Shown here: piece by piece, positions 1,143 to 27,777 of the stretch | How the letters are laid out: each line of letters starts with the position of its first letter | Position numbering within the stretch: position 1 is the stretch's first letter | From: a virus | Virus record (IMG/VR): IMGVR_UViG_3300007345_000103 | Span: 1-37,534 of that record | Strand: one strand, 5' to 3' | Length of the DNA stretch: 37,534 nt | Notes under the pieces: model-generated | Databases searched by the model: none | The model's input: the letters and a program-made list of their open reading frames with translations, nothing else | What the model was told of the DNA's origin: nothing | Translations under genes and position numbers: made by a program

Positions 1143-2368
1143 AATTGTTGTTTCTGATCTTGTAACAGTTTCAAACCAACTTCTTTGAATTCGAAACCAG
1201 ACTTTTCAAAGAAGAACTCTATCATGTTACGGTCTGCAATATACTTTGGCGAACCGATCCATTGATCATGGTCAGAGATTTTTGGGTGATAGACGATACA
1301 CACTGCCTTCGTGTATCCGTGTTCTTGGTGTGCCTCGAAAAAGTTAGACATGAAGGTCTGAAGCGAACCACCAGAACCACTTGTGATAACTTCAACAAAT
1401 GTCTTGCCGTCTTGGTAAGATGGAATGATCTCTTCGTAAAGTTTTTTCTTGTTGGCACCCTCTCTCCACTTGATGTGCTTCTGGCCTAGCAAACTCAGTT
1501 CTTCGTTCTCGATTGCTTTCTTCGCCTTGTTGATAGCAGAGTTGATTTGACGTTTGGTGATATTGAACTTCTCAAGTGCAAGGATCATTGCATCCGAATC
1601 AAGATCGATGTTGTGGTTATAGTAGAGACTCTGTGCAATCTTGGAGAAATCGTCAGATTGGTTTACCTTTGGTTGAATCTTACCTTCCTGAACATTCAAC
1701 ATCATGCCCAAATATTCGATCTCTGAATCTGTCAGACCTTCCCACATTGACAGGGGAACACGAACTACCTCAAGAGTAACACCGTGTTTTGAGTCGTTGG
1801 TCGCACGGGTAGAGTGGTTACCACCAATACCAGCAGAACCATCAACACCAAAGTCTCGATCACCTTCTTCAAAATATCCTTCTAAAAGAACCGCCTGAAG
1901 TTTTAACTTCTCTGTGTTCCCGTGTTCCTCATCGATAGCGTTCTGGATATTCTGTTTGTGCGTCCAGTCATCTTCTGCACGTACTTGAATGAAGGTTGTC
2001 TTGACAACCTCAGACGCCATCTCCTGTTCACCCTTCATGTTCTTGATCTCTTCTGCGAGAGTCAGAACACGATCCATATCGAACTTCTTACTGGCGGGTG
2101 ACCCGTTAGACTTATTAAAAAACATCACATTGGATTTTGCATTTGCTTCACTTAACACTCTATATTCCTCATTTTGCATTGCACCCCAACTACCAGTACG
2201 TAGTATCTCGTAGTCAAAGTCATTATAACTCTCTCTCAAGAGTTGGTTAAATTCTTCACATTTGGAAGAATGGTTATACCCATCTGAGATCAGACCCTTA
2301 TGGATGCCAACATACATACGTCCGGTTGGACGGTGCGTATATTGGTATAGGTATGCTTCGTATTTCAT
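1130..2368 (-). CDS. GIY-YIG nuclease with ParB-like region
   Basis: A 412-residue protein. Residues about 5-25 carry a GIY-YIG nuclease signature (YLYQY, then GRMYVGIHKG), followed by a short domain ending near residue 90. A middle region around residues 150-230 contains GIGGNHSTRA followed by an LGMMLN segment, which resembles the substrate loop of ParB/sulfiredoxin-like domains. The C-terminal 180 residues are not recognised. In T4-like phages GIY-YIG proteins are often homing endonucleases, but the ParB-like part and great length are unlike a plain homing enzyme. Its ATG lies exactly 6 bases after a sigma70 -10 box (2375-2403), so the mRNA is predicted to be leaderless. It is downstream of the glycosyltransferase and DUF4338-like genes on the same strand. 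Confidence 0.72.
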   Translation of the reverse strand: MKYEAYLYQYTHRPTGRMYVGIHKGLISDGYNHSSKCEEFNQLLRESYNDFDYEILRTGSWGAMQNEEYRVLSEANAKSNVMFFNKSNGSPASKKFDMDRVLTLAEEIKNMKGEQEMASEVVKTTFIQVRAEDDWTHKQNIQNAIDEEHGNTEKLKLQAVLLEGYFEEGDRDFGVDGSAGIGGNHSTRATNDSKHGVTLEVVRVPLSMWEGLTDSEIEYLGMMLNVQEGKIQPKVNQSDDFSKIAQSLYYNHNIDLDSDAMILALEKFNITKRQINSAINKAKKAIENEELSLLGQKHIKWREGANKKKLYEEIIPSYQDGKTFVEVITSGSGGSLQTFMSNFFEAHQEHGYTKAVCIVYHPKISDHDQWIGSPKYIADRNMIEFFFEKSGFEFKEVGLKLLQDQKQQLTVG

Positions 2369-2374
2369 GTTTTA

Positions 2375-2403
2375 ATAATAACAAACTGGACACTATTTGT
2401 CAA
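2375..2403 (-). promoter_or_regulatory. Sigma70 promoter for GIY-YIG gene, leaderless
   Basis: On the minus strand TTGACA (2403-2398), a 17-base spacer and TATTAT (2380-2375). The ATG starts 6 bases later, at the expected transcription start. The -35 overlaps the last codons of the upstream glycosyltransferase gene. Confidence 0.8.
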
Positions 2404-3376
2404 GGGCTTTATCCATCTTTTTTGCGAATTCCTCGAAATACTGGTCTTCACTCAGAAGAACCTTGGAGTAGTTGTTGCGGTACTCTTCCAACTTGTTATC
2501 AAAGAAAGTAGGGTCTCGTAACTCTAGGATCTTTTCCTCAAGTTCCTCAAACGTCTGGACTCTCTGCCAAGGGTCTATGTTATACGTGTTGTCTATGTCA
2601 TAGTCCTGCCACACAAAGGGGACGATACCAATAGACAACGCCTCTGGATATCGTGACGTAGTGGCGTGTGGGTCTAACCAGTTGAAACATAGAGTAGACC
2701 GTGCGGGTTCTAGTAGAGGATAGAGTTTTCTCCAGTCCTTGATCCACTTGGATTGTCTCTGCACACCCGAAGGGAATCCGCCGATCATGACGGTAGACAA
2801 CTGAGACCTATAGATTTTACGGATGGTCTTCTCTCTATCGTTTCCATGTTTCATCCTACCCCAATACCCAAAGTCCACAGACTTACCTTCGAACATCAAA
2901 TCGGAGATGGGGTTCTTCAACCTCTGAATGAAGTGATACTTCATACCGTGAATATTTCCACTGAAGTCTATCTCATCTATGGTCACAAACTTCTTGATGT
3001 TTGGCAGGAAACTGCGGTACAGTTCTTCGGTGTCTCCCCTGTCACTACGGAACATCACTACAGTCTTGCCTTCGAAGTAGGGTGCAATCTTATCAATGTG
3101 AGACTGACTCTTCGCCAAGTCTTTGGGGTTCATCTGTAACTCACCGTGATACCGAAACTCACTGTCACTTGGTATGACAATAACATCTGCGGACTCAATG
3201 GTTTCGGGTGTACGTTTAGGGCGTGTCCCATCAAAGGAACAATTGTACGTATCGTAGTTGTGTTCGGGGTGCGCCTTCATCCACTTGACGTAGTTCTCGA
3301 AGAAACTGTCCAGTACGGTTTCGAGTGGTCCTTCATACTTAACAAAGGATCTCAGTCTTGCGATGGTAATGTTCAT
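2393..3376 (-). CDS. Putative glycosyltransferase
   Basis: A 327-residue protein with features of the GT-B glycosyltransferase fold. Near residue 235 is a segment SRYPEALSIGIVPFVW followed by a WQRVQTFEELEEKI stretch, the usual pattern of the C-terminal nucleotide-sugar-binding domain (a conserved E-A-L, G, P-V sequence, then a helix over a 'range' of positions). The N-terminal half has a Rossmann-like strand KTVVMFRSDRGD. Start ATG overlaps the stop of the DUF4338-like gene by 4 bases, so the two are translationally linked. Substrate is unknown; DNA-base or surface-glycan glycosylation are both possible. Family assignment is inference from pattern. Confidence 0.6.
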   Translation of the reverse strand: MNITIARLRSFVKYEGPLETVLDSFFENYVKWMKAHPEHNYDTYNCSFDGTRPKRTPETIESADVIVIPSDSEFRYHGELQMNPKDLAKSQSHIDKIAPYFEGKTVVMFRSDRGDTEELYRSFLPNIKKFVTIDEIDFSGNIHGMKYHFIQRLKNPISDLMFEGKSVDFGYWGRMKHGNDREKTIRKIYRSQLSTVMIGGFPSGVQRQSKWIKDWRKLYPLLEPARSTLCFNWLDPHATTSRYPEALSIGIVPFVWQDYDIDNTYNIDPWQRVQTFEELEEKILELRDPTFFDNKLEEYRNNYSKVLLSEDQYFEEFAKKMDKALDK

Positions 3377-4485
3377 CGTATAATATCAATCTCGTTCATG
3401 GTGTCCTGATTCCAGACCTCTAGTTCTGTACGGACACGATTTTCATTTTTCAACTTGTCGTAACGTTTACTGGCGAGTTTCTTCCACCACGCGATCACGT
3501 TATCTAGTTCAAACCTATCAAAGTTTTCTGCCTTGATCAGGTTATCGGTCCTACCCAATAGAACGTCCCGCACATTAGAGTAACCATACTCACCCATATA
3601 AAAACGTTTCTGTGTAGTCACATCACCCGCAGTCGATATCTTATCAACAAATTTGTTGTACGCCTCCGTGTCATGATGTTTCAGTGATGCCTTGACGATA
3701 CTCACCATCTTGGTTTGCATCTTTAGTTTACGGGATGACGCACCCTTGTGCACTAACTCCTCACCACCGTTCTTCTCAGTAAACCAATCCCTCATCTCTG
3801 GATAGAAGTCATCCCCTAGAGTCAACAGGAACTTAGATTGTGTGTCGCCCTTGTACCGTAGATAAGGACGCATACCATCATACATCGATGCGCCCTTGAG
3901 GTTACCATACAACGAGGTGGTTTCAAAGAGACAGAACTCTGTATCATATTTGTCATTCAACATTCTGCGACTATCATGGGAACAACAGATGGCGGCAAGT
4001 AACTTACCACCAAGATAGTTAAACCCAAAGGGTTGGGCGGGTACGATGTTGAACCCCATGATTGCACGTTTGTTGAATATGTCAAGATCCGGTACACCCC
4101 CAAGATACTCGTTCCGTGGTTTGGAATTGATTAGAGGAGATCCAAACCGAATGAACCCACATATGGTGTTGGTGGTTGTTTCTCTGACTACCATCTTTAA
4201 TGTCTTGCCAGGCGACTCATCCGGAGAGAACGAGGCAGTCTTTTCAAGTAGGGTGTCAAACAACTCGTGTGGGATTTGTTGGATACGGAAGTCCATATCT
4301 TGGGGGTGCAAATCAAACTGTTGGAACAGGTCATCCTCAACGGACATGCCTGGCAACGGTGCGGGGATGTTCCTCACACGTTCGATCTTACGTGCACGGA
4401 AATAGTCATCGATACGTTCGAAGTCATCGAAGTAATCCATGAGTTTCCACGCTGCGTGAAATGCGTCTTTCTTTGATAAAATCAT
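3373..4485 (-). CDS. DUF4338 (DruA)-like protein
   Basis: A 370-residue protein. The segment from about residue 110 to 225 reads like the DUF4338 domain: CGFIRFGSP, a basic RNEYLGG segment, IVPAQPFGFNYLGGKLLA, then FETTSLYGNLKGASMYDG and a YKGDT motif. These align by eye with the GFSS..RD.WIGW, RFLILPWVRVPNLASHLL and ETFVD..GT.Y.AANW..vG.T motifs I recall for DUF4338, the hallmark domain of Druantia DruA proteins. Biochemical function of that domain is not known to me. It is the first gene of the leftward operon, preceded by a perfect sigma70 promoter (4508-4536) and an AGAGG ribosome site. Homology is distant and should be treated as a hypothesis. Confidence 0.55.
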   Translation of the reverse strand: MILSKKDAFHAAWKLMDYFDDFERIDDYFRARKIERVRNIPAPLPGMSVEDDLFQQFDLHPQDMDFRIQQIPHELFDTLLEKTASFSPDESPGKTLKMVVRETTTNTICGFIRFGSPLINSKPRNEYLGGVPDLDIFNKRAIMGFNIVPAQPFGFNYLGGKLLAAICCSHDSRRMLNDKYDTEFCLFETTSLYGNLKGASMYDGMRPYLRYKGDTQSKFLLTLGDDFYPEMRDWFTEKNGGEELVHKGASSRKLKMQTKMVSIVKASLKHHDTEAYNKFVDKISTAGDVTTQKRFYMGEYGYSNVRDVLLGRTDNLIKAENFDRFELDNVIAWWKKLASKRYDKLKNENRVRTELEVWNQDTMNEIDIIR

Positions 4486-4507
4486 ATTGAACCTCTAATC
4501 ATGTACC

Positions 4508-4536
4508 ATTATATAGCATCCAGACAAGTTTGTCAA
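4508..4536 (-). promoter_or_regulatory. Perfect sigma70 promoter, leftward operon
   Basis: On the minus strand TTGACA (4536-4531), 17-base spacer, TATAAT (4513-4508). Predicted start near 4501, leaving a short leader with AGAGG before the ATG at 4485. It is back to back with the late promoter at 4540-4547. Confidence 0.9.
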
Positions 4537-4539
4537 GTG

Positions 4540-4547
4540 TATAAATA
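4540..4547 (+). promoter_or_regulatory. T4-type late promoter TATAAATA
   Basis: An exact TATAAATA, the T4 late promoter consensus recognised by gp55 with RNA polymerase. It lies 22 bases before the ATG of the tail tube gene, and only 3 bases separate it from the -35 box of the divergent early promoter. Confidence 0.88.
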
Positions 4548-4569
4548 GAGGTGTACATAGGAGTGACTC

Positions 4570-5091
4570 ATGGCGAAATCTACCTTAACCGCAAACAAAA
4601 ACTTTTTACAACCCACAGGGTTTAGAGTAAGCATCGACAACACGTTGTTCGGTAACGTGCAGTTCTTTGCACAATCCATATCACATCCGGGCGCTTCCAC
4701 GAACGCAGTCGAGGTTGGTATACCTAGAGTTACTGGAATCCCATTTTCAGGATCTAAGATAACATATTCTGACCTTACTGTCAACCTTATTCTTGACGAA
4801 GACATGCAGTCCTACACAGAACTACAGAAGTGGATGGAGCGTCTGGTCAACGAGAAAGAGGTTAGGCCAGGCGATAGGTACAGAGGACAGGTCGAGAAGG
4901 ATGAAACATATTCCGACATCACGGTTACCATCTTGACCAGTCAGAACAACTCAAACTTGCGAATCAGATACAACGATGCGATCATCACTAATCTGGGCAG
5001 TTTTGAGTTGAACGCAAACGCAAACGATATTACTTACATTCAATTCCCCGCAACCTTCCGGTTCAGGGACTTCGAGATCGTCAAACTATAA
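4570..5091 (+). CDS. Tail tube protein, T4 gp19 family
   Basis: A 173-residue protein of the T4 gp19 tail-tube family, whose members stack as hexameric rings inside the contractile sheath. Visible family features are FLQPTGFRVSID near the N-terminus, an FFAQSISHPG segment, a G.KITYSDLTVNL strand and LDEDMQSYTELQKWM, which matches the family's 'DE...Y.E...W' motif. ATG follows an AGGAG ribosome site, and the perfect late promoter upstream supports a structural role. In T4-like genomes the main gp19 gene lies upstream of gp20-gp23, so this copy after gp23 could be a second tube-like protein (for example a tube-initiator or terminator role). The main copy is outside the window, so that cannot be checked here. 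Confidence 0.82.
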   Translation: MAKSTLTANKNFLQPTGFRVSIDNTLFGNVQFFAQSISHPGASTNAVEVGIPRVTGIPFSGSKITYSDLTVNLILDEDMQSYTELQKWMERLVNEKEVRPGDRYRGQVEKDETYSDITVTILTSQNNSNLRIRYNDAIITNLGSFELNANANDITYIQFPATFRFRDFEIVKL

Positions 5092-5092
5092 C

Positions 5093-5121
5093 TTGACACA
5101 ACACGACAAAACGGGTATAAT
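5093..5121 (+). promoter_or_regulatory. Perfect sigma70 promoter before uvsY operon
   Basis: TTGACA (5093-5098), 17-base spacer, TATAAT (5116-5121). It begins 2 bases after the tail tube stop codon. The next ATG (5125) is only 3 bases after the -10 box, so transcription should begin at or just inside that codon. Confidence 0.92.
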
Positions 5122-5124
5122 AAT

Positions 5125-5316
5125 ATGGAAATAAACCCAATAGAACCAGCGTCTATGCCAATGAAGTCATGGTGGAACGAGGTACAGACACAAAAGGTTC
5201 AAAAGAAATTGGTAGAGGGTGGTACTGCAATGCAATACACCATCTATACATATAACCGATATGGACAACTGATAGAGTCTGAGGTGAGGGTTCAACAACT
5301 TGATATGAGGGCATAG
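5125..5316 (+). CDS. Small protein upstream of uvsY
   Basis: A 63-residue protein not recognised, rich in Gln, Tyr and charged residues, without a signal peptide or membrane segment. Its stop codon TAG (5314-5316) directly abuts the ATG of uvsY, so the two are co-translated. The annotated ATG at 5125 lies only 3 bases after a perfect -10 box, so the real start may be one of the two later in-frame ATGs (5155 or 5161), giving 53 or 51 residues. Function unknown; the context suggests a recombination or replication accessory role, which is only an inference from location. Confidence 0.65.
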   Translation: MEINPIEPASMPMKSWWNEVQTQKVQKKLVEGGTAMQYTIYTYNRYGQLIESEVRVQQLDMRA

Positions 5317-5763
5317 ATGCTAGACCTTGATAATATTTTGAAAGAGTGGGCAGAAGACTGTAAGATCCCCCAACACCAACTAGATGAAACATCCCGTAAC
5401 ACACCTAGTCTACACGCAAAGTACTTGCAGTACCTATCTTTGACTAAATTGAACCTGAAGAGGGCAGAACACTCTCAGAAGGATCTACTCAAAGACAAGT
5501 GGTTGTACTACAACGGTAAGATGGATGAGGAAACTCTTCAGTCTAAGAACTGGCATCCGGACCCCTTTGACGGATTGAAGATTATGAAAGGTGACATGAA
5601 CTATTACTATGACTCCGATCCTGAGATTCAGAAGTCCGAAGAAAAAATCGTTTACCTTAAAACGATTATAGATACTCTGGTCGAGATAGTCGATAGTCTG
5701 AAGTGGAGACACCAGACCGTGAAGAACATTATTGAGTGGAGAAAGTTCGATGCCGGAGGTTAA
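5317..5763 (+). CDS. uvsY: UvsY recombination mediator
   Basis: A 148-residue match to UvsY, the mediator that helps load UvsX recombinase on single-stranded DNA covered by gp32. Family traits visible are the N-terminal acidic WAEDCKI segment, the conserved PSLHAKY motif, a central YYNGKM segment with a YYDSD stretch, and the C-terminal helix ending KNIIEWRKFDAGG. T4 UvsY is 137 residues, so the length fits. ATG is preceded by GAGGG with 5-base spacing. It is followed by a small basic protein and uvsW, the same order as in T4-like marine phages. Confidence 0.93.
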   Translation: MLDLDNILKEWAEDCKIPQHQLDETSRNTPSLHAKYLQYLSLTKLNLKRAEHSQKDLLKDKWLYYNGKMDEETLQSKNWHPDPFDGLKIMKGDMNYYYDSDPEIQKSEEKIVYLKTIIDTLVEIVDSLKWRHQTVKNIIEWRKFDAGG

Positions 5764-5765
5764 TC

Positions 5766-5915
5766 GTGGCGAAGAATTCTAACGTCATTACCAAGAAGGT
5801 TATTAATGACGTACACCGCAAGGGTACGTCTATTGGTAATGGTAAAGTCAAGCGCAGTTCCATGAACAAGGATAAGAAACGTTCCTTCAAGAAGTATCGC
5901 GGTCAAGGACGATAG
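5766..5915 (+). CDS. Small basic conserved protein between uvsY and uvsW
   Basis: A 49-residue, very basic protein (MAKNSNVITKKV..., ending FKKYRGQGR) starting at GTG 5766. It lies in the gap between uvsY and uvsW, 2 bases after the uvsY stop and 3 bases before the uvsW start. I recall closely similar small proteins, with the same SSMNK-KKRS-KKYRGQGR ending, at this place in T4-like cyanophages. The high Lys/Arg content suggests nucleic-acid binding. Function is unknown. Confidence 0.85.
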   Translation: MAKNSNVITKKVINDVHRKGTSIGNGKVKRSSMNKDKKRSFKKYRGQGR

Positions 5916-5918
5916 TTC

Positions 5919-7397
5919 ATGGAAAGTACCATTCGTATTCGGATGTTAGATCATTCGAGAATGGCGGTTGAGTCTAACCCCGCACAACAACAGGAACTAA
6001 GAGATTACTTCTCTTTCTTCGTTCCGGGCTATCGGTTCATGCCTGCATTTAAACGCAAGGTGTGGGACGGTAAGGTGCGTCTATATAATCAAGTAAAACG
6101 AGAGATACATGTTGGTCTGTATCACCAACTCCGCAAATTTTGTGCAGACCGCATGTACCCTCTCCAGATCGTAGAGAATAAAAAATACGGCATTCCCAAT
6201 GCCAAGAATAAGATTGATCATCAAGGACTAGTCAAGTTTCTTGGGTCATTACAAACCCCGTTCGAGCCCCGTGACTATCAGTACGATGCGATAACACACG
6301 CCATCGAAAACAAGCGGGCCATTCTTCTATCCCCCACAGGTTCGGGTAAGTCGTTCATCATCTATAATACGATGAGGTGGTTCCTTGACAATCACGAAGG
6401 CAAGGTTCTTATTGTTGTACCAACAACGTCTCTGGTAGAACAGATGCATCAGGACTTTGCGGACTATGGTTATGAGTCAGATTTGATTCATAAAATATAC
6501 AGTGGTAAAGATAAAGAAACAAATAAACGTATTATCATCTCAACATGGCAGTCTATCTACAAGTTGGGTTCAGAATGGTTCGAACAGTTTCCTTGTATAT
6601 TCGGAGATGAAGTCCATTTATTCAAGGCAAAATCCTTATCCACTCTCATGGACAAGTGCAGAAATGCGGAGTATCGTTTTGGGACAACAGGTACACTGGA
6701 TGGTACTGAGACTAATAAGTTGGTACTAGAAGGATTGTTTGGTCCGGTCTTCAAGGTCACCACTACAGTACAGTTACAGGAAGACAACACACTTGCAGAC
6801 CTAGACATCAAGGTCATACTCATGCGTTATCACAACGATGAGTGCCATAAGATGAAGGGTAAAACCTATCAGGAAGAAATTGAATATATAGTAACGAACG
6901 AGAAAAGAAATAAGTTCATCACGAAGTTGTCCCTTGATCAAGAGGGGAACACTCTGGTACTATTTCAATTCGTTGAAAAACATGGAAAGGTTTTGTATGA
7001 CCTTATCCGTGACTCTGCCGACGAGAACCGAAAAGTATTCTATGTGTCCGGTGAAGTGGCAGCCAATGACCGTGAACAGATCCGTGGGATCGTCGAGAAA
7101 CAGAAAGATGCAATCATCGTGGCAAGCCTTGGAACTTTTTCTACTGGGATTAATATTCGGAATCTGCATAATATTGTATTCGCTTCTCCAAGTAAATCTC
7201 AGATTAAGGTTCTTCAATCTATCGGAAGAGGGTTACGAAAAAGTGACAATGGGGTTGCTACTAAGCTTTATGATCTATCAGATGATCTACATTGTAGAGG
7301 CTACAAGAACTTTACTCTAAAACATTCCGCCGAAAGAATAAAGATATATACTAGAGAAGGGTTTAAATACAAAGTGTACCCGATTAGTTTGAGATGA
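5919..7397 (+). CDS. uvsW: UvsW helicase
   Basis: A 492-residue superfamily 2 RNA-DNA/DNA helicase. UvsW remodels branched DNA and R-loops and switches T4 from origin- to recombination-dependent replication. Motifs in order: an N-terminal domain (residues 1-110) with WDGKVRLYN, Q-motif region YQYDAI, Walker A SPTGSGKS near 138-145, DEVH at about 230-233, GTTGTL near 255, and motif VI QSIGRGLRK near 432-440. T4 UvsW is 503 residues long (587 in some reports with extensions), so the size fits. ATG follows AAGGA. It overlaps the next gene by 4 bases. Confidence 0.95.
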   Translation: MESTIRIRMLDHSRMAVESNPAQQQELRDYFSFFVPGYRFMPAFKRKVWDGKVRLYNQVKREIHVGLYHQLRKFCADRMYPLQIVENKKYGIPNAKNKIDHQGLVKFLGSLQTPFEPRDYQYDAITHAIENKRAILLSPTGSGKSFIIYNTMRWFLDNHEGKVLIVVPTTSLVEQMHQDFADYGYESDLIHKIYSGKDKETNKRIIISTWQSIYKLGSEWFEQFPCIFGDEVHLFKAKSLSTLMDKCRNAEYRFGTTGTLDGTETNKLVLEGLFGPVFKVTTTVQLQEDNTLADLDIKVILMRYHNDECHKMKGKTYQEEIEYIVTNEKRNKFITKLSLDQEGNTLVLFQFVEKHGKVLYDLIRDSADENRKVFYVSGEVAANDREQIRGIVEKQKDAIIVASLGTFSTGINIRNLHNIVFASPSKSQIKVLQSIGRGLRKSDNGVATKLYDLSDDLHCRGYKNFTLKHSAERIKIYTREGFKYKVYPISLR

Positions 7398-7771: not shown

Positions 7772-7823
7772 GGTATATTCCCCCCCGCACTTAGTGGCTT
7801 TAGTTTAACATGAGATACGTGAT

Positions 7824-8732: not shown

Positions 8733-8758
8733 ACGTTAAATTGAATTAGGAGTATTTA

Positions 8759-9361
8759 ATGGCAACCGCAAAAGTGAAACCCAAGGAAAGACCGCATTAC
8801 GTGAACAACAAAGAGTTCTCTGCGGCAGTAGTCGAGTACTGTAAGGAGGTTGGAGTATGTAGGGAGAAGGGAGAAAAAGTTCCAATCGTTCCCAACTACA
8901 TCGCTTCTTGTTTCCTGAAGATTGCGGAGGGGTTGTCACATAAGTCTAACTTCGTCCGTTACACCTATCGGGAAGAGATGGTTATGGACGCTGTGGAGAA
9001 CTGTCTCAAGGCGATTGAGAACTACAACATTGAGACCGCAACTCGTACAGGTAACCCGAACGCATTCGCATACTTCACACAGATTTCTTGGTATGCGTTT
9101 CTTCGTCGTATTGCACGTGAGAAGAAACAACAGGACATCAAACTAAAGTACATCTCCGAAGCGGGTGTCGAACAGTTCCTTGATCAACAGGAAGGTGACC
9201 CCGAATGGCAACACGTTGTACCTTTTATCGATGTGTTGCGTAATCGAATCGACGCCGTGAAGGAATCGGATGCGGAGTTCAAAGAGTACGTTGAAGAAGA
9301 GAAGAAACGTAAGAGACGTACTGTCAAGGTCGATTCAGACCTGTCGGATTTCCTTGTATAA
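8759..9361 (+). CDS. 55: gp55, sigma factor for late transcription
   Basis: A 200-residue match to gp55, the small sigma-like protein that directs host RNA polymerase to TATAAATA late promoters with help from the gp45 clamp. Typical parts are the N-terminal YVNNKEFSAAVVEYC, a region-2-like helix RYTYREEMVMDAVENC followed by AYFTQISWYAFLRRI, and an acidic C-terminal tail ending in SDLSDFLV, which probably contacts the sliding clamp. T4 gp55 is 185 residues. It has its own sigma70 promoter and AGGAG ribosome site, which fits early expression. Confidence 0.93.
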   Translation: MATAKVKPKERPHYVNNKEFSAAVVEYCKEVGVCREKGEKVPIVPNYIASCFLKIAEGLSHKSNFVRYTYREEMVMDAVENCLKAIENYNIETATRTGNPNAFAYFTQISWYAFLRRIAREKKQQDIKLKYISEAGVEQFLDQQEGDPEWQHVVPFIDVLRNRIDAVKESDAEFKEYVEEEKKRKRRTVKVDSDLSDFLV

Positions 9362-9366
9362 AACAC

Positions 9367-9395
9367 TTGACATCCTTTGCATATTCTGGTAATAT
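9367..9395 (+). promoter_or_regulatory. Sigma70 promoter for gp47 operon
   Basis: TTGACA (9367-9372), 17-base spacer, TAATAT (9390-9395). It starts 5 bases after the gp55 stop. The ATG at 9405 is 9 bases past the -10 box, so the leader would be only a few bases. Confidence 0.82.
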
Positions 9396-9404: not shown

Positions 9405-9524
9405 ATGTGGACATATGAATGTAGCGCAGGGACATACAGAGAAGAGTCCCTGCACAAATTACTGTGGATAATTTTTAAACATCGTCTTCATCATCTAGTG
9501 GAAGACGGGAGGTTCTCTGATTAG
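9405..9524 (+). CDS. Small conserved protein before gp47
   Basis: A 39-residue open frame (MWTYECSAGTYREES..., ending HHLVEDGRFSD). Its TAG overlaps the GTG of gp47 by one base, so it is translationally coupled to it. A promoter lies just upstream. The aromatic and histidine-rich sequence is similar to small proteins I recall at this position in T4-like marine phages, where the same DGRF ending appears. Function unknown. Short length limits certainty, but position, coupling and promoter support it. Confidence 0.75.
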   Translation: MWTYECSAGTYREESLHKLLWIIFKHRLHHLVEDGRFSD

Positions 9525-10582: not shown

Positions 10583-10731
10583 TGGGTAAGGGATCCAAAC
10601 CAAGACCTATCAAAGATCGGAAACAGTTCAATGATAACTGGGACCGCATATTCAAAGGACAGACGCAACAACCCAAAGGCGTCGATCAAGAAAAACTCAA
10701 AGAACAGGCGCAAGATCCAAAAAACGGTTGA
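10582..10731 (+). CDS. Small conserved protein MGKGSKPRP between gp47 and gp46
   Basis: A 49-residue protein starting at GTG 10582, overlapping the gp47 stop by one base. The opening GKGSKPRPI and the FNDNWDRIFKG segment match a small protein I recall as widely conserved in T4-like marine phages. It is strongly charged and has no membrane segment. Its TGA stop lies within the -35 box of the gp46 promoter. Function unknown; a link to the gp46/gp47 nuclease is suggested only by position. Confidence 0.88.
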   Translation: MGKGSKPRPIKDRKQFNDNWDRIFKGQTQQPKGVDQEKLKEQAQDPKNG

Positions 10732-10756
10732 CAAGACCTGTTTGGGATAGTATAAT
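10728..10756 (+). promoter_or_regulatory. Perfect sigma70 promoter for gp46, leaderless
   Basis: TTGACA (10728-10733), 17-base spacer, TATAAT (10751-10756). The upstream stop TGA is inside TTGACA. The gp46 ATG begins 6 bases after the -10 box, so transcription is predicted to start at the ATG. Confidence 0.92.
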
Positions 10757-10762: not shown

Positions 10763-12487
10763 ATGATTAAATTCGAAAAGATCCGGTGGAAAAATTTCCT
10801 TTCCACTGGGAATAACTTTACGGAAATAGATTTCCAATCTACCCCTACCACTCTAGTGGTGGGTCACAACGGCGCGGGTAAGTCAACACTACTCGACGCT
10901 CTCAGTTTTGGATTGTTCGGTAAACCACACCGTAAGATATCCAAGCCTCAACTTATCAATTCCATCAACGGAAAGGGTACACTAGTTGAGGTCTTTTTCT
11001 CAGTCGGCTCTGTTAGGTATAAGGTACTCCGTGGTATCAAACCCAACAAGTTTGAGATATGGTGCAACGATAACATGTTGAACCAGAGTTCTCACGCCAA
11101 GGAATACCAACAGATCCTTGAGACGAATATCCTTAAACTGAACCACAAGTCGTTCCACCAGATCGTTGTACTGGGTTCGTCTTCGTTCGTACCGTTTATG
11201 CAACTTCCGGCAAACTCTCGTAGAGATGTAATCGAAGACCTACTTGACATCAACATGTTCTCCAAGATGAACACAATTCTGAAAGAGAAGATGTCTATAC
11301 TCAAGGAAAACATCCGTGAGAATGGACACGCCATTGAGGTGGTCAAGACTAAGATCAACGCACAGAAGAAGTATCTGCGAGATTTGTCGGCGCTAAACAC
11401 CGCACACCGTAAGGAGAAAGAAGAATCAATCTCAACCCTTCTTAAGGAGATTAGTGAACTCCAAGACTTTAACGATAAGAACATGCAAGATGCAATGGAT
11501 CGTTCTATGTCAGTGGCTTCCAAATTGCAGAAGGTTCAGACATCACGTGAGAAGTTACTTGAGTATCAATCGACGTTCAAGTCTCAGATCAAGTCCGTAG
11601 TGAAGGAGGCGAAGTTCTTTGAAGACAACTCTGTCTGTCCTACGTGTGATCAAGATATTGCGGATGATCTGCGTGAGACTAAAAAGAATGATGCGAACAA
11701 ACGTGCAAAGGATCTCAGTGAGGCGATGGGTAAGTCTGACTCTCAGATGAAAGAGTTTGATGATCAACTCGTTGAACTGCAAAAGGAGTTGGAGTCTGCC
11801 CGTGTACTACAGAATGAGGTTAACAATAACAACCAGACCATCACCAGACTTAACCAACAGATAGAACGCATCCGTGCAGAGATCGATAACTTGGGAGATA
11901 ACACTGGTGACCTCAAGGATGCAAACGATGAACTCCAAACTCTGAACAAGGACTTAGAGTCAAAACAAGATGAGAAGTATCGTATGCACGAGGACTACTC
12001 GTATCAACAGATCAACGCTGAACTTCTTAAGGATACGGGGATCAAAACCAAGATCATCAAACAGTACCTTCCGGTCATTAACCAACTGACCAACCAGTAC
12101 TTACAAATCTTAGACTTCTTTGTTCACTTCGATCTGGACGAGAGTTTCAACGAGACTATCCGTTCGCGTTTTCGTGACAGTTTCTCTTATGACTCTTTCT
12201 CTGAGGGGGAGAAACAACGTATAGACTTGTCCCTACTATTTACGTGGAGACAAGTGGCGAAGATGAAAAACAGTGTTGCGACTAACCTACTCATCCTTGA
12301 CGAGACTTTCGATTCTTCTTTGGACGATGATGGTGTAGACAACCTAATGAAGATCATACACACTCTGGGTGAAGAGACCAACGTGTTTGTTATCTCACAC
12401 AAGGCGGAACTGGAAGACGCTGCGTTTCAACGCAGGATTGAATTCGTCAAAGAGAAGAACTTCAGTAAGATGAAAGAAGCCGCATGA
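10763..12487 (+). CDS. 46: gp46, recombination nuclease subunit (Rad50/SbcC family)
   Basis: A 574-residue SMC-type ATPase, partner of gp47. Walker A GHNGAGKST at 34-42; a long coiled coil from about 180 to 430 interrupted by a zinc hook CPTC near 293-296; the ABC signature SFSEGEKQR near 477-485; and Walker B LLILDETFD near 508-516. T4 gp46 is 560 residues. There is no ribosome site of note because the ATG sits at the predicted transcription start. The stop overlaps the next gene as ATGA. Confidence 0.96.
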   Translation: MIKFEKIRWKNFLSTGNNFTEIDFQSTPTTLVVGHNGAGKSTLLDALSFGLFGKPHRKISKPQLINSINGKGTLVEVFFSVGSVRYKVLRGIKPNKFEIWCNDNMLNQSSHAKEYQQILETNILKLNHKSFHQIVVLGSSSFVPFMQLPANSRRDVIEDLLDINMFSKMNTILKEKMSILKENIRENGHAIEVVKTKINAQKKYLRDLSALNTAHRKEKEESISTLLKEISELQDFNDKNMQDAMDRSMSVASKLQKVQTSREKLLEYQSTFKSQIKSVVKEAKFFEDNSVCPTCDQDIADDLRETKKNDANKRAKDLSEAMGKSDSQMKEFDDQLVELQKELESARVLQNEVNNNNQTITRLNQQIERIRAEIDNLGDNTGDLKDANDELQTLNKDLESKQDEKYRMHEDYSYQQINAELLKDTGIKTKIIKQYLPVINQLTNQYLQILDFFVHFDLDESFNETIRSRFRDSFSYDSFSEGEKQRIDLSLLFTWRQVAKMKNSVATNLLILDETFDSSLDDDGVDNLMKIIHTLGEETNVFVISHKAELEDAAFQRRIEFVKEKNFSKMKEAA

Positions 12488-13086
12488 GTGTTAACATAAT
12501 CGATGACTTCTATGATCCGGAAACTCTGAACGAGATTTCCAGTTACCTCAATGGGATCCTGTATTCAAAACAGGATGAAGTCCATCTGTTCTCGTGTAAC
12601 ATGGTTTTATGGGATGATGGACTATACAGACACCAGAACGGTAGTGATCTTGAAGCGCCTCCTTTAGTACTCATTCACTACCCCCAAGCACATGGTGAAA
12701 GAGGTAAAATAATCCATGACCTCATAAAAGAAAAGACTAATGAAAGGGTCAAAGAGTTTGGGTTGAGGTGTCAAGACGTAACAGGTCCAATGTTTCATAT
12801 CTGGACCCCACAGTCTTACATCAACTGGCATAACGACTTTAGGCCTGGGGTTGAATCAGAACAGAGACATGGGGCGGCAACAATTTATTTAAATCGTGAA
12901 TGGGCCCTTGACAAAGGGGGTGAGTTTTTGTATAATGATGATGCAGCTGACTTGAATAACGTTAAACGTGTCACGCCCGCAGAAAATCGTGCAGTTGTAT
13001 TGGACGGTTGGGCGAGACACAAAACAACTCCGGTTGCACCGGAAAACATTAGGAAGTCATTACAAATTTGGTTAACCAAAATCTAA
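12484..13086 (+). CDS. 2OG-Fe(II) dioxygenase-like protein
   Basis: A 200-residue protein with a clear prolyl-hydroxylase-type triad: H116-N-D118 in the YINWHNDF context, H179 in ARHKTTPV, and R190 eleven residues later for 2-oxoglutarate. The intervening AATIYLNREW and GGEFLYND segments match the core strands of the PKHD/P4H group. It overlaps gp46 by 4 bases and ends 12 bases before gp45. A perfect sigma70 promoter (12908-12936) lies inside its coding sequence. Substrate unknown. Confidence 0.87.
   Translation: MSVNIIDDFYDPETLNEISSYLNGILYSKQDEVHLFSCNMVLWDDGLYRHQNGSDLEAPPLVLIHYPQAHGERGKIIHDLIKEKTNERVKEFGLRCQDVTGPMFHIWTPQSYINWHNDFRPGVESEQRHGAATIYLNREWALDKGGEFLYNDDAADLNNVKRVTPAENRAVVLDGWARHKTTPVAPENIRKSLQIWLTKI
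12908..12936 (+). promoter_or_regulatory. Perfect internal sigma70 promoter upstream of gp45
   Basis: TTGACA (12908-12913), 17-base spacer, TATAAT (12931-12936), within the dioxygenase gene. In frame it encodes L-D-x5-L-Y-N. It could give gp45 its own transcript with a leader of about 155 bases. Confidence 0.75.
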
Positions 13087-22819: not shown

Positions 22820-22825
22820 TTTGCA

Positions 22826-22839: not shown

Positions 22840-22848
22840 ATATAGCAG

Positions 22849-22874
22849 TGTACATGCGGATAGTCCGGTGTACA
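22849..22874 (+). promoter_or_regulatory. Hairpin in the hsp20 leader
   Basis: TGTACA and its repeat (22849-22854 and 22869-22874) pair fully; inside them CGGA pairs with TCCG around a TAG loop, with one bulged G and one U-G pair. It lies about 15-20 bases before the AAGGAG ribosome site, between promoter and start codon. Confidence 0.6.
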
Positions 22875-22903
22875 TTAGTCTTGCTTAAAAAAGGAGATAC
22901 AAC

Positions 22904-23320
22904 ATGACTAATCTTAAAGCGAATACGCTCTTCCCTCGTGCATCTTTTGTGGGGTTTGACCACCTGTTTCAAGAACTTGATTGGGTTGCCAAACACGCTA
23001 CTGATACGTACCCACCTCACAATATAGTGAAGGTATCTGATGACGATTATCTAATCGAAGTCGCATGTGCAGGGTTTACTTTGGACGATTTGGAGATCGA
23101 ACAGGACGAACGGACATTGACCGTAACTGGTCAACAGGAAGTTCCTGCTGAACGTGAATACCTACATAAAGGTATCTCGCAGAAGAAGTTCAAGAGAGTG
23201 TTTAGACTGTCAGAATACGTCTTTGTTGACGGTGCTTCTTTGACGGACGGAATCCTGTCTATCCAGTTGAAGTTTGAACTTCCCGAAGAGAAGAGACCTC
23301 GTAAGATCGATATTTCATAA
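22904..23320 (+). CDS. hsp20: Hsp20 family small heat shock protein
   Basis: A 138-residue small heat shock protein (IbpA-like) of the kind found beside regA and gp43 in T4-like marine phages. The alpha-crystallin domain runs from about residue 40 to 138: VKVSDDDYLIEVACAGFTLD, then LTVTGQQE, a FKRVFRLSEYV strand and the ADGxLxI-like segment DGILSIQLKFELPEE. Such proteins hold unfolding proteins and may help virion assembly. Strong AAAGGAG ribosome site. Its leader has a stable hairpin. Confidence 0.95.
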   Translation: MTNLKANTLFPRASFVGFDHLFQELDWVAKHATDTYPPHNIVKVSDDDYLIEVACAGFTLDDLEIEQDERTLTVTGQQEVPAEREYLHKGISQKKFKRVFRLSEYVFVDGASLTDGILSIQLKFELPEEKRPRKIDIS

Positions 23321-23339
23321 ATCTAACGAGGAGAAAATT

Positions 23340-23432
23340 ATGAAAACTGACCTAGTAGAACGGGTCGGTGAGGCAGTGATGTGTTTGTGGGTAGTCGCAA
23401 TCATGGTCACGGCTTTCCAGCCCCTAGTATAA
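23340..23432 (+). CDS. Small membrane peptide after hsp20
   Basis: A 30-residue open frame preceded by a good GAGGAG ribosome site. Residues 10-27 (GEAVMCLWVVAIMVTAF) are hydrophobic. The short length leaves doubt, but the ribosome site is as good as those of the larger genes. Function unknown. Confidence 0.5.
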   Translation: MKTDLVERVGEAVMCLWVVAIMVTAFQPLV

Positions 23433-23439
23433 AAAGACA

Positions 23440-23458
23440 GGGGGGTGAAAGTCCCCCC
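23440..23458 (+). promoter_or_regulatory. G/C hairpin before the GT25-like gene
   Basis: GGGGGG and CCCCCC flank a 7-base loop (TGAAAGT). There is no T-run after it, so it is unlikely to be a full terminator; it lies 11 bases before the next ATG and could act on mRNA stability or translation. Confidence 0.45.
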
Positions 23459-23469
23459 ACTCGTGAGGA

Positions 23470-24270
23470 ATGATGAAGGTATACCAAATTGTAATGAAGG
23501 GTGATGAGAGATCGGAGAAGTACGCCGAACTCAGTAAGTTATCTTTTCAGAACCTTATAGATGATGGCACGTTGGACTGGAACGTGTTTGATGCGATCAC
23601 TCCAGAACACCCTGACTTCGAAGAACACGTTGCGAAGTACGATTGGAGACCATCCCTCGCCAGACTGGATGCGGGGAAACAACCTCAAGATCATTCCCCA
23701 ACAGAGAAAGCGGGAATGTGTTCTCACTGGGAGTTGATGCGTCAACAAGGTGCAACCGGAGAACGGTTCCTAGTTATGGAACATGATACGTATCTATGGC
23801 CTCAACATGAAAACGAATTCCGCAACCTACTCACGTACATTCACGCAAAAAATATAATCTACGCAAACATAGGTTTGTTCATGGGGTGTTATACCTTCAA
23901 ACCGTTTTGTGCAGCGTGGCAGTACAGACTACTAACCGAACAAAAGTTCTGGATTAACTGTGGTCCTTATGGTGTACTAGAGAGACTATTCAAGAACTAC
24001 GTTGATCACTTCTTGTCAAAACAAGATAAGAGTCGTATACCTGAGAACTACATCATCCACCCTTGGTCTAACGGAGACACCTTGTATTTTGGTAGAGACA
24101 TACATTTACCATACAATCACCGTGACCCCGATCCAATGCAGTCAGTCAAAAACCCGACAACGCAGATGGTGTCTAAGTCTCTCGCCGTGACTCAGGACCA
24201 TCATGGTTATCCAGACATACACATAGAACAACCTTGGACTCGTTCAGATCAATTTAAAGTTATCCCTTGA
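23470..24270 (+). CDS. Glycosyltransferase, GT25-like
   Basis: A 266-residue protein resembling LPS glycosyltransferase family 25. The pattern EKAGMCSHWELMRQ (79-91) corresponds to the family's 'G...C..SH...w' motif, and RFLVMEHDTYLWP (99-111) to the 'LILEDD' nucleotide-sugar/metal motif, with EHD in place of EDD. The family transfers galactose or glucose to LPS or glycan. Acceptor unknown. ATG follows GAGGA. Its TGA stop is inside the -35 box of the gp43 promoter. Confidence 0.65.
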   Translation: MMKVYQIVMKGDERSEKYAELSKLSFQNLIDDGTLDWNVFDAITPEHPDFEEHVAKYDWRPSLARLDAGKQPQDHSPTEKAGMCSHWELMRQQGATGERFLVMEHDTYLWPQHENEFRNLLTYIHAKNIIYANIGLFMGCYTFKPFCAAWQYRLLTEQKFWINCGPYGVLERLFKNYVDHFLSKQDKSRIPENYIIHPWSNGDTLYFGRDIHLPYNHRDPDPMQSVKNPTTQMVSKSLAVTQDHHGYPDIHIEQPWTRSDQFKVIP

Positions 24271-24296
24271 CAGAAGACGCCCTACTGTTATATAAT
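24267..24296 (+). promoter_or_regulatory. Sigma70 promoter for gp43
   Basis: TTGACA (24267-24272), 18-base spacer, TATAAT (24291-24296). The upstream TGA stop is inside TTGACA. Predicted leader to the gp43 ATG is about 20 bases with AAAAGG. Confidence 0.88.
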
Positions 24297-24322
24297 ACAA
24301 CCCTACTGAAAAAAGGCGCACC

Positions 24323-26806
24323 ATGAATCAACCAATGTTTTACACTTCCGTGGTCCGGTACGGCAGTAACATCCTGTTCCGTGGGTTTGCGGAGAACGGA
24401 AAAAAACTTCAAACCAAAGTCCCCTACAAACCTACCCTGTACGTGCAGTCCGACAAGAGACAATCGGGGTGGAAGGCGATTGACGGTACTTCTGTCGAAC
24501 CCCTCAAGTTTGACTCCATGAAGGAGGCGACTGAGTTCCAGAAACGTTACGAGGACGTACCCAACTTCAAGGTCTACGGGATGAACAACTTCGTGTCTCA
24601 GTTCATTGCAGACATGTTCCCTACCCCTATCGAATTCAACCGTGACTGGATCGATGTGTGCACCATCGACATTGAGGTCGCATCTGACGAAGGGTTCCCC
24701 GAACCCGACAAGGCAGATCATCCGGTCATCGCCATCACTATCAAGAACCCCAACGGTCCCTATCGCGTCTGGGGTCTGTATGACTACAATGCGGGTGAGG
24801 ATGTGATCTACGAGAAGTGCGACTCCGAAGCGCAACTCCTCATGAAGTTCGTCGATCACTGGTTCCGTAACCAACCCGACATCGTGACCGGATGGAACAC
24901 ACGATTCTTCGACATTCCCTATCTGGTCAACCGTATTGGTAAAACCATTGGCGCGGACATGGTGAAGAAACTTTCACCGTGGGGTCTGGTACGTGAAGGT
25001 AACGTAACCATCAACGGAAAGAAACAACAGGAGTACACCCTCGAAGGTATCCAACACCTCGACTATCTAGAAATCTTCAAGAAGTTCACCTACAACACTC
25101 TGGGTCAACAGGAGTCCTATCGACTGGACCACATCGCCCACGTAGTACTGGGTGAGGGTAAACTATCCTACGAAGAACACGGTACACTGTACTCCCTGTA
25201 CAAGACTGACTTCCAGAAGTTCATTGACTACAACATCAAGGACGTGGAACTGGTCGAGAAACTCGACGAGAAACTTGACCTGATCTCTCTGGTCCTGACC
25301 ATGGCGTATCGCGGTGGTGTGAACTACAACGACACGATGGGGACCACAAACATCTGGGACACCATCATCTACCGCATCTTGAACGAACAGAAAGTTGCAG
25401 TACCACCCAAGGTCGAGAAGGTCAAGACATCGTATCCAGGCGGATACGTCAAGGAACCTCAAGTCGGTTCCCATGACTGGGTGACATCGTTCGACTTGAA
25501 CTCACTGTACCCGAACATCATTGTCCAGTACAACATGTCACCTGAGACTGTCCTTGATGGTTTCTACAATGACGTGTCCGTGGACGCATTCCTTTCCGGC
25601 GACATCGATGTGTCCGGTAGTCCTTTCTCTGTCGCACCTACCGGAATTAAGTTTACTCACGAACGTGAGGGTGTGATCCCCAACATCATTAAGAAATACT
25701 ATGACGAACGCCGTGTGGTCAAGAAGGAGATGTTGCGACTACAACAAGAATACCAGAACAATCCCACACGGGAACTGGACAACAAGATCACGTCACTGAA
25801 CAACCAACAGATGGCGATCAAGATTCTGATGAACTCACTCTACGGTGCGTTGGGTAATCGGTGGTTCCGATACTTTGACCAACGTGTTGCGGAGTCGATC
25901 ACCCTTGCGGGACAACTCGCAATCAAGTGGGCGGAACGTGCGGTCAACGATGAGATGCAAAAACTTCTCAAGACGGAAGAAGACTACGTTGTTGCAATTG
26001 ACACCGACTCTGTTTACATTCGGATGGGTGATCTTGTTGACAAGTTCAACCCGAAGGATCCTGTAAAGTTCCTTGACAAGATTTGTTCCGAACACTTCGA
26101 GAAAGTATTGTCTAAATCCTATGCGGAGATGGCGAGAGTCACCAGTGCAATGGTCAACCGTATGGAGATGGGACGCGAGGTAATCGCAGACCGTGGTATC
26201 TGGATGGCGAAGAAACGTTACATCCTCAACGTGCACAACAACGAGGGTGTGCAGTACGCACAACCCAAACTCAAGTTGATGGGTATCGAAGCGGTCAAGT
26301 CATCTACGCCTCAGGTTGTGCGTGACAAGTTTCAAGAAATCTTTCGGGTCATCATAGAAGGTACTGAGTCAGACACACAGTCCTTTATTGGGAACTTTAA
26401 GACCCAATTTGGGACTCTTCCTCCCGAAGACGTGTCGTTCCCTCGTGGGGTTTCGGAGATCACCAAGTGGCAGGATCGACAGACCGTCTACAAGAAGGGT
26501 TGTCCTATCCACGTGCGTGGTGCACTGGTCTACAACGATACGGTTAAGAAGAACGCACTTGACAAGAGGTACGTCTACGTCCAGAACGGAGAGAAGATCA
26601 AGTTCGTCTACCTGAAGATGCCCAACCGTCTGGGTGAGAACGTGGTGTCGTTCCCCTTGAACCTACCCAAGGAGTTCGGGTTGCATGACTTCATCGACTA
26701 TGACATGATGTTCCGGAAGACGTTCCTAGATCCTCTCGAACCAATCCTTGATGCAGTCGGGTGGGCGGCAGAACCACGTGCAACCCTAGAAGACTTTTTC
26801 TCTTGA
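24323..26806 (+). CDS. 43: gp43, DNA polymerase
   Basis: An 827-residue family B replicative polymerase, complete and unsplit. Exonuclease motif Exo I is TIDIEVA with D116 and E118; polymerase motif [11 protein letters not shown] lies near 390-400, motif [17 protein letters not shown] near 500-515 and motif [10 protein letters not shown] near 558-566. T4 gp43 is 898 residues, so this is a compact form like those of marine T4-like phages. Codon use is richer in C-ending codons than neighbours, which may reflect high expression. No intron or intein interrupts the motifs. It has its own promoter. Confidence 0.97.
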
Positions 26807-26832
26807 CAGAAACCGCGAAGATTTGTTATGAT
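26803..26832 (+). promoter_or_regulatory. Sigma70 promoter after gp43, leaderless
   Basis: TTGACA (26803-26808), 18-base spacer, TATGAT (26827-26832). The gp43 TGA stop is inside TTGACA. The next ATG (26839) begins 6 bases after the -10 box. Confidence 0.85.
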
Positions 26833-26838
26833 GTGTCT

Positions 26839-27777
26839 ATGTTTGAACTAACACTATTCCGCAATCAGTTTGATAACAAGACTCACAATCGGGTCCAGTT
26901 CGATTCGTGGGATAAATTTGTTAAGTGGTTGTATCGCATATCACAAGTGAAAGGAGAGAAGGGTGGAAATAATTCTAGTCCTCTTATTAGTCCTGCTGTT
27001 TTCGAAATGGGTTCGAAACGTTCTAATAAATCTACTAGTCATTGGGGTGGTTGGTGCGCTGTTGATGTTGATGATCACAATTTTGGTGTGGATCTTTCAA
27101 CCCTTGAGCGAAGACTGCAAGATCAATTCGGAGGATACGACTATGTTGTGTACAATACTGCGTCAAGTAGATCAGACAACCTCAAGTTTCGGATCGTCTT
27201 CCGACTCGACGAACCCGTCGAAAACGAAAGGATCAAATCCTTCTGGTATGCTCTGAATACAGAACTAGGTGAGATCGGAGATCCTCAGACAAAAGACCTT
27301 GCACGTATGTACTATGTGCCGGCGCAGTATCCTAACGCAACATCTTTCTTCTTTGCGAACTCTGGTTCTGCACTCAACGTATCTGAGTTGATTGCAAAAC
27401 ATCCTTACCACGAGAAGACAGGTAATTCTTTCCTAGATAGATTACCAGAAAGTTTACAGAAGGCAGTGATAGAACATCGTAAGTCCCAACTGGACAACAC
27501 TAACATAGTATGGACATCGTATCACGATTGTCCGTTCTGGCCTAAGTCGTTAGGTGCGGAATATATACAGATCAGTGGTACAGGTTGGTATCACAAAATG
27601 TATCAGATCATGGTCGCTGTTGCGGGCCGCGCAACAGAAAGTAACTATCCCATAACTGCACAACAGATTGCGGATATGTGTAAACAGTTCGACGCTGAAA
27701 CTGGTAACTGGTACGAGAACAGACCTCTCATTGTAGAGGCCGACAGAGCATTGGAGTACATTTACCGAAATGGATAA
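26839..27777 (+). CDS. Possible primase-polymerase (AEP)-like protein
   Basis: A 312-residue protein beside the DNA polymerase. The frame is open 26 codons further upstream, but the promoter -10 box lies in that part, so ATG 26839 is the start. GWCAVDVDDHNFG near residues 70-82 looks like the catalytic 'hhDhD' strand of archaeo-eukaryotic primases, and YDYVVYNTASS... followed by KFRIVFRLDEPV near 97-124 matches the 'T.S....RfR.v..ld.P' core seen in plasmid and phage primase-like replication proteins. The usual histidine of motif II is not seen, so it may be inactive or a different fold. Function is inference. Confidence 0.5.
   Translation: MFELTLFRNQFDNKTHNRVQFDSWDKFVKWLYRISQVKGEKGGNNSSPLISPAVFEMGSKRSNKSTSHWGGWCAVDVDDHNFGVDLSTLERRLQDQFGGYDYVVYNTASSRSDNLKFRIVFRLDEPVENERIKSFWYALNTELGEIGDPQTKDLARMYYVPAQYPNATSFFFANSGSALNVSELIAKHPYHEKTGNSFLDRLPESLQKAVIEHRKSQLDNTNIVWTSYHDCPFWPKSLGAEYIQISGTGWYHKMYQIMVAVAGRATESNYPITAQQIADMCKQFDAETGNWYENRPLIVEADRALEYIYRNG

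Follow-up and report, generated by a model that had tools for sequence, protein, structure and literature searches.

Promoters and genes of the window

The window studied here is the whole of a 37,534-base virus record of a T4-like phage (IMG/VR record IMGVR_UViG_3300007345_000103), and the subject is an arrangement found upstream of three of its genes, in which a sigma70-type promoter lies so close to the start codon that the messenger RNA (mRNA) is predicted to begin with the A of the ATG, that is, to be leaderless. The three genes encode a GIY-YIG/homing-endonuclease-like protein, a gp46-like recombination endonuclease subunit and a primase-like protein (Table 1). When two overlapping 25,000-base parts of the window were searched by megablast, Phage C48C1, which is filed under Kyanoviridae, was the only record of the phages collection that was matched, with 75-78% identity across 2% of one part and 11% of the other. 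A preliminary description of the window, made from its sequence alone, had already named the three genes; the PHROG matches uphold gp46 and primase, while the name GIY-YIG is weakly backed, as the PHROG match is marginal and the product has no Pfam match at 0.001.

Table 1. Promoters and genes of the window (nt, nucleotides; aa, amino acids; ORF, open reading frame; promoters are given as -35 box, spacer length, -10 box, gap and start codon).
Feature	Coordinates	Strand	Basis
Sigma70 promoter of GIY-YIG-like gene, TTGACA-17-TATTAT-6-ATG	2375..2403	-	sequence read
Sigma70 promoter of gp46, TTGACA-17-TATAAT-6-ATG, 12/12	10728..10756	+	sequence read
Sigma70 promoter of primase-like gene, TTGACA-18-TATGAT-6-ATG	26803..26832	+	sequence read
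GIY-YIG/homing-endonuclease-like gene, 412 aa, predicted leaderless	1130..2368	-	PHROG 314 homing endonuclease, E 2e-4
gp46-like (SbcC-like) recombination endonuclease subunit, predicted leaderless	10763..12487	+	PHROG 77, E 2e-171
Primase-like gene, 312 aa, predicted leaderless	26839..27777	+	PHROG 9765 DNA primase, E 2e-41; N-terminus conserved from ATG
DNA polymerase (gp43-like), leadered here, predicted leaderless in many relatives	24323..26806	+	PHROG 262
Leadered contrast promoter of DNA polymerase, 26 nt before ATG	24267..24296	+	sequence read
Promoter with 3-nt gap to ATG at 5125, outside leaderless geometry	5093..5121	+	sequence read
Promoter (10/12) with 9-nt gap to 39-aa ORF 9405-9524, no clear fit	9367..9395	+	weaker -10 box, TAATAT

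Throughout, d denotes the number of bases between the -10 box and the ATG, and the promoter score is the number of matches, out of 12, to TTGACA/TATAAT. The geometry described earlier for the starts at 2368 (minus strand), 10763 (plus) and 26839 (plus), with 17 or 18 bases between the boxes and exactly 6 before the ATG, is present in the sequence. The GIY-YIG-like promoter overlaps the 3′ end of the gene upstream of it (2393-3376, minus). No leader with a ribosome site separates promoter and gene in these three cassettes, whereas one does so, for example, at 8759 and 17293. Altogether six further promoters (score at least 10/12) stand 20-31 nt before an ATG, at 8759, 17293, 20788, 24323, 4485 and 15609; they leave predicted leaders of about 14-25 nt, several with a sequence like a Shine-Dalgarno (SD) site. 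One more promoter (10/12) lies 15 nt before a 104-aa ORF (37215, minus), and another 54 nt before 29735.

The preliminary description had added two looser cases, at 5125 and 9405. Their gaps of 3 and 9 nt are as it gave them; neither is supported as a leaderless gene. At 5125, transcription starting 7 nt after the -10 box would begin at 5128, inside the ORF, and we therefore do not count this gene as leaderless. At 9405 the gap of 9 nt is accompanied by a weak -10 box, and a relative of the 39-aa ORF, in locus L028, has no such promoter upstream. This small ORF lies before gp47, and its counterpart in L028 is 64% identical.

The three cassettes are not matched in shuffled sequence. The pattern TTGACA-N17-TATAAT, with at most one mismatch, has 12 matches in the window against none for the reversed pattern. 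Of the 93 ORFs that begin with ATG and encode 60 aa or more, three have a promoter (at least 11/12) at d=6; when the 60 nt before each start were shuffled 1000 times with dinucleotides preserved, this distance held no promoter 997 times and one promoter 3 times, and no shuffle placed three at any single distance from 0 to 30. The distance d=26 likewise holds three promoters in the window, all of leadered genes.

Promoter distances in related phages

Matches to gp46 (the best 80 of 250) and to the primase (the best 80 of at least 599) supplied a first collection of related loci. Removal of near-identical contexts reduced 3291 gene starts to 1915, starts with less than 110 nt upstream being excluded. 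Promoters scoring at least 10/12 occur at d=6, 7 and 8 in 33, 12 and 7 of these non-redundant starts (1, 0 and 0 in reversed upstream sequences), and a second, broad mode lies at d=22-31. A further 22 starts at d=-2 (5 in the reversed control) have an ATG formed by TATAATG itself. By the first-ATG rule, the starts at d=5-9 belong to the primase (22 of 46), the DNA polymerase (14 of 42), a Dam-like methylase (6 of 12), gp46 (4 of 39) and the GIY-YIG-like gene (2 of 3); a further nine are scattered over other genes, and some of these are probably spurious.

We then surveyed these five families with additional orthologs (the 80 best of at least 599, all 19, and the 80 best of 159) and one best promoter of at least 9/12 per upstream region, taking orthologs with an in-frame ATG and omitting matches that begin after query residue 15, regions with less than 90 nt upstream and loci 173-218. 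Upstream regions at least 88% identical were merged (primase 167 to 60, polymerase 172 to 63, gp46 82 to 37, GIY-YIG-like 23 to 6, methylase 96 to 33). In the resulting 199 distinct upstreams the distance is bimodal, mostly 6-9 or 20-43 nt, and none falls at 11-19; the exceptions to the two modes are four rows at d=-2 and one each at 0, 1 and 10. (A second in-frame ATG, at d=7, is present in the two polymerase rows at d=-2, L238 and L296, and in the methylase row at d=10, L327; all were counted as found.) Distances of 6-9 nt are found in 51 of 60 primase upstreams (27 at d=6, 22 at d=7, one each at d=8 and d=9), 29 of 63 polymerase upstreams (10 at d=6, 16 at d=7, 3 at d=9; two more lie at d=-2 and two have no promoter) and 18 of 33 methylase upstreams. 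For gp46, distances of 6-8 nt occur in 6 of 37, and for the GIY-YIG-like gene only the window and L307, 2 of 6, have the arrangement with d=6, the other 4 having a promoter 29-37 nt away. The predicted layout is therefore one that recurs in many distant relatives, and it reaches further than had been claimed from the window.

Seven long records, C48C1 and six contigs, were scanned over their whole length. They contain 235 promoters of at least 11/12 against 24 in the reversed sequence, so that sigma70 TTGACA/TATAAT promoters with spacers of 16-18 nt stand above background here as they do in the window. For 97 of these promoters an ORF begins no more than 60 nt away, with nine starts at d=6, one at d=7, two at d=8 and a second mode at d=25-30. 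The nine include the three of the window, found again through G001, a contig of the same species with an identical gp46; one of the starts counted at d=8 (L019 19555, the same as L192 in G003) is probably false, having an SD site and a later ATG, and it also stands in the counts over the 1915 starts, in the family counts by the first-ATG rule and among the 52 leaderless starts considered below.

In C48C1 the consecutive polymerase, methylase and primase genes have d=7, 6 and 6, the methylase being measured from its second ATG, and one gene annotated as baseplate hub has d=5; the promoters of UvsY, gp55, gp47, gp45 and gp44 stand at 27-36 nt. The annotated methylase start of C48C1 (33480; cassette at L001 33451-33488) directly follows the -10 box (d=0), whereas the second ATG, at 33486, leaves a 6-nt gap and agrees with the homologs. 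Judged by this comparison, the annotated start appears to be two codons too early.

The polymerase is the family in which both states are common, and we placed them on a tree of 56 polymerases, obtained by a quick search after proteins shorter than 600 aa had been removed (63 to 56). Rows with d=-2 were set as leaderless, and L254 was labelled leaderless by hand, since a second promoter of 10/12 lies 6 nt before its ATG. The leaderless state requires at least 6 changes on this tree, compared with 19.0 in shuffles, and the starred branches force at least 4 of them; all 19 rows of one starred clade are leaderless, while the polymerase of the window is leadered and sits within a leadered clade of seven. 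The few changes and the all-leaderless clade point to a state that has been inherited for long and yet also switches. L254 carries two tandem copies of the promoter-plus-ATG unit, and the first ATG opens an ORF that stops after seven codons; the same duplicated unit is present in G004 (31643-31717).

Start codon and predicted first base

If the ATG of the cassette is the start codon, the -10 box should follow it whenever the N-terminus is longer or shorter. For rows picked solely by the distance from the -10 box to a conserved N-terminal motif (within 26 nt), we regressed this distance, in nt, on the number of codons of N-terminal extension, so that a slope of 3 means that the box follows the ATG and a slope of 0 that it follows the motif. 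The slopes are 2.74 for the polymerase (n=29), 2.34 for the primase (n=47) and 2.86 for the methylase (n=15), and the standard deviation of the -10 distance is smaller when measured to the ATG than to the motif (0.84 against 1.99, 0.65 against 1.28 and 1.08 against 1.67, respectively). With N-termini conserved from the ATG and a -10 box that moves with it, the ATG of the cassette is probably the true start codon.

RNA polymerase favours a purine start about 7 nt after the -10 box. At d=6 (n=48), position +7 is the A of the ATG, and the preceding base is a pyrimidine in 94%. At d=7, position +7 is a pyrimidine in 40 of 40 cases (a purine in none), and at d=8 (n=5) positions +6 to +8 are all pyrimidines in 5 of 5; of the 37 promoters at 18-45 nt, 38% have a purine at +7. 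Because pyrimidines stand just before the ATG at d=7-8, the A of the ATG is likely to be the first base there as well. Counted over gene starts, a pyrimidine precedes the ATG in 49 of 52 leaderless starts and in 45% of 1562 starts without a promoter. SD motifs, for their part, occur in none of the 52 leaderless starts against 98 of 155 leadered ones, and in a second set in 2 of 93 against 18 of 37. Folding of the 5′ end was also considered: the first 40 nt of leaderless genes give -2.94 against -5.48 internally (weaker in 75 of 93), and leadered genes behave alike (-3.94 against -5.59), so this was not used as evidence.

Taken together, the bimodal spacing, the tracking of the start codon, the pyrimidines before the ATG and the lack of SD motifs make leaderless mRNAs from these compact promoter/start cassettes very likely, and the earlier prediction of transcription from the A of the ATG at the three promoters stands, as a prediction. 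Its companion claim, that the spacing looks selected, gains from the two distance modes in relatives, the polymerase tree and the shuffles.

A number of observations weigh on the other side. Rows within families are related, and the shuffle tests and Fisher values, among them that of the upstream-ORF comparison below, accordingly overstate independence. Outside the two modes, the seven long records also hold five starts at d=13 and four at d=0; within the families, a promoter is missing from 7 of 60 primase upstreams, and the polymerase has a leader in 30 of 63 (d=21-43). The tracking depends on the distance cut, as a cut at 30 nt admits leadered polymerase rows, and the polymerase slope then falls to 0.74, with the tracking gone. 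The lack of SD motifs is partly forced, because the -10 box occupies the SD position. The pyrimidine bias is in part not special, a pyrimidine preceding the ATG in 72% of the 155 leadered starts too, and passages of one survey describe a dipyrimidine before starts as general in Cyanobacteria and Proteobacteria (PMC3160421). Finally, no promoter of at least 11/12 at d=6-8 was found in stretches of T4 (98.9 kilobases, kb), Syn9 and S-SSM4 (42 kb each) and HTVC008M (50 kb).

A stop codon in the -35 box and coupling to the upstream gene

In the window, the polymerase stop codon TGA (26804-26806) lies within the -35 box TTGACA (26803-26808) of the primase. With rows having less than 250 nt upstream excluded here and in the upstream-ORF counts, 47 of 88 leaderless cassettes have an upstream ORF of 60 codons or more that terminates at the TGA of TTGA(CA); across the seven long records the same fusion is found in 32 of 164 TTGACA promoters compared with 11 of 671 other TTGACA sequences. 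It is not confined to leaderless genes, as 18 of 23 leadered polymerase promoters have it. The upstream ORF ends most often 31-33 nt before the ATG.

Of the 13 genomes in which an insert separates gp47 from gp46, 6 have the gp46 cassette, which is present in none of the 24 in which the two genes overlap (the leaderless labels for this comparison were entered by hand from the five-family survey). More generally, 11 of 92 leaderless genes have an upstream ORF whose end falls between -12 and +30 relative to the ATG, against 41 of 58 genes without a promoter of at least 10/12 (gp46, primase, polymerase and methylase). The contrast is carried by gp46 (27 of 29) and the primase (10 of 11); in the polymerase (0 of 5) and the methylase (4 of 13), genes that lack a promoter are mostly uncoupled too. 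For gp46 and the primase, the comparison suggests that the cassette stands in for translational coupling.

Interpretation and alternatives

In the marine T4-like group the cassette, -35 box TTGACA, 16-18 nt, -10 box TATAAT, 6-8 nt and ATG, can be carried by primase, DNA polymerase, Dam-like methylase, gp46 and the GIY-YIG-like gene. Transcription by the host sigma70 RNA polymerase would begin with the A of this ATG and yield an mRNA that opens with 5′-AUG and has no SD site. Leaderless mRNAs are translated through recognition of their 5′ AUG, and the cassette transcripts would presumably enter translation by this route, perhaps early in infection. Expression of the gene would then need neither a leader nor translational coupling to the adjacent gene, which may be the benefit, and the unit is so tight that the upstream stop is often the TGA inside TTGACA. 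Tentatively, we picture T[TGA]CA-N17-TATAAT-N6-8-[ATG] as a portable module, about 38-40 nt long, in which the end of one gene is combined with the promoter and start of the following one; it might take over when inserts break the coupling of core genes, and would place replisome and recombination genes on separate leaderless mRNAs, outside SD-based control.

The main rival is economy of space, which may be the driving force and, like the coupling role, predicts leaderless mRNAs. On this account compaction pushes the promoter to a distance of 6-7 nt, the shortest that leaves the ORF completely transcribed, and leaderlessness is a by-product; we regard it as plausible, somewhat short of an even chance. 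It competes with the purpose of the arrangement and not with leaderlessness, and its standing overlaps with that of leaderless expression from the cassette. The frequent stop inside the -35 box, both in the leaderless cassettes and in the seven long records, and the typical end of the upstream ORF fit it well. Compaction alone, however, would permit leaders of intermediate length, and the range d=11-19 is empty in the 199 upstreams; tight packing also occurs together with a leader, as in the leadered polymerase promoters with a fused stop.

The preliminary description had suggested that leaderless early mRNAs escape RegA and might be translated under different host conditions. A leaderless mRNA might evade RegA, or another translational repressor that binds near the ribosome sites of replication genes. 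A translation repressor is annotated beside gp62 in C48C1, T4 RegA is annotated as a regulator of replication mRNAs, and the predicted leaderless genes are largely replication genes; but neighbouring replication genes keep distant promoters (in C48C1, gp45 at 29 nt and gp44 at 36 nt), and the GIY-YIG-like gene carries the cassette too. We consider this evasion unlikely, and economy or an uncoupling role has more behind it than either suggestion. It seems similarly improbable that the promoters serve other transcripts and that the ATG is translated mainly from read-through mRNA started upstream. The genes do lie in co-directional clusters, and the 11 of 92 leaderless starts close to an upstream ORF end would suit such a source; the read-through RNA, however, would likewise lack an SD site, 81 of the 92 starts are uncoupled in that sense, and the -10 box tracks the ATG. 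Chance combined with shared descent of one ancestral arrangement is hardly credible: rows within a family are related, and the polymerase needs only about 6 state changes, but the arrangement is found in five families and in upstreams less than 88% identical, shuffles never gave three promoters at one distance, and the spacing is kept while the start codon shifts.

Comparison with known systems

The most familiar leaderless mRNAs are those of some bacterial phyla and of a few repressor genes in phages. The cI mRNA of lambda, transcribed from the sigma70 promoter PRM, is a phage mRNA that begins at the AUG; there, one repressor gene of a temperate phage is concerned, and here replication and other genes of five families. 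A recurring, predicted leaderless set on core replication genes of marine T4-like phages would open the question of the circumstances and reasons for which a phage gives up its ribosome leader, and the polymerase, which has switched naturally between a predicted leaderless and a leadered form, lends itself to comparison. Gene calling is affected as well, the methylase start of C48C1 being a likely example.

According to passages of the respective papers, phage transcripts are often leaderless (PMC5312081), and a TATAAT-like signal about 10 bp upstream is taken as the mark of leaderless (TA-led) bacterial genes, with lambda named as the first leaderless case (PMC3160421). That class was counted over bacterial genomes, and lambda is the only phage named in those passages. 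In Deinococcus, passages of a further study place the -10 motif of leaderless genes about 6-7 bp before the ORF and report for Deinococcus-Thermus that too short a gap gives aberrant expression, that the -10 motif can act as a promoter which a -35 element strengthens, and that nearly a third of genes are concerned (PMC12340547). The cassettes resemble this system, as far as those passages describe it, in the distance of the -10 box and in the (here predicted) leaderless mRNA, and differ in having a near-consensus TTGACA, in belonging to T4-like phages and in being restricted to few genes per genome. We found no report on leaderless mRNAs of T4-like or marine phages in the open-access literature, searched by titles and the starts of abstracts, which is not proof of absence; in the passages of a paper on a marine T4-like phage the word "leaderless" occurs only in a reference title (PMC9004378).

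T4, Syn9 and S-SSM4 share with the phages studied here host sigma70-type promoters and a related gene order. Their polymerase genes are arranged differently, those of Syn9 and S-SSM4 overlapping the preceding gene and T4 gene 43 having an SD-like leader, as do two Vibrio phage primases. With the threshold at 10/12, one promoter at d=6-8 appears in the four phage stretches scanned, in S-SSM4. A search for the cassette pattern with at most two mismatches in nine named phage records and a metagenome-assembled genome (MAG) gave, in the named records besides C48C1, 12 matches ending in ATG, in five phages; 1 of the 12 is at an annotated gene start and the other 11 are not, one of them lying where S-T4 has no annotation. 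The cultured Pelagibacter phage HTVC008M has TTGCCA-17-TATAAT-6-ATG (L401, 76441-76478) at an annotated endonuclease gene starting at 76476.

Other observations

A contig scan of genomes matched 11 stretches, one of which is a relative (L396), a 142-kb contig with a primase cassette at d=7 that is filed in a Sphingobacteriales MAG, probably through a binning error; the promoters do not resemble those of that phylum. Within the window, two perfect consensus promoters lie inside long ORFs. The one at 12908-12936 has no start of an ORF of at least 40 aa within 80 nt, and the one at 35848-35876 has within this distance only a 46-aa ORF, which overlaps the promoter.

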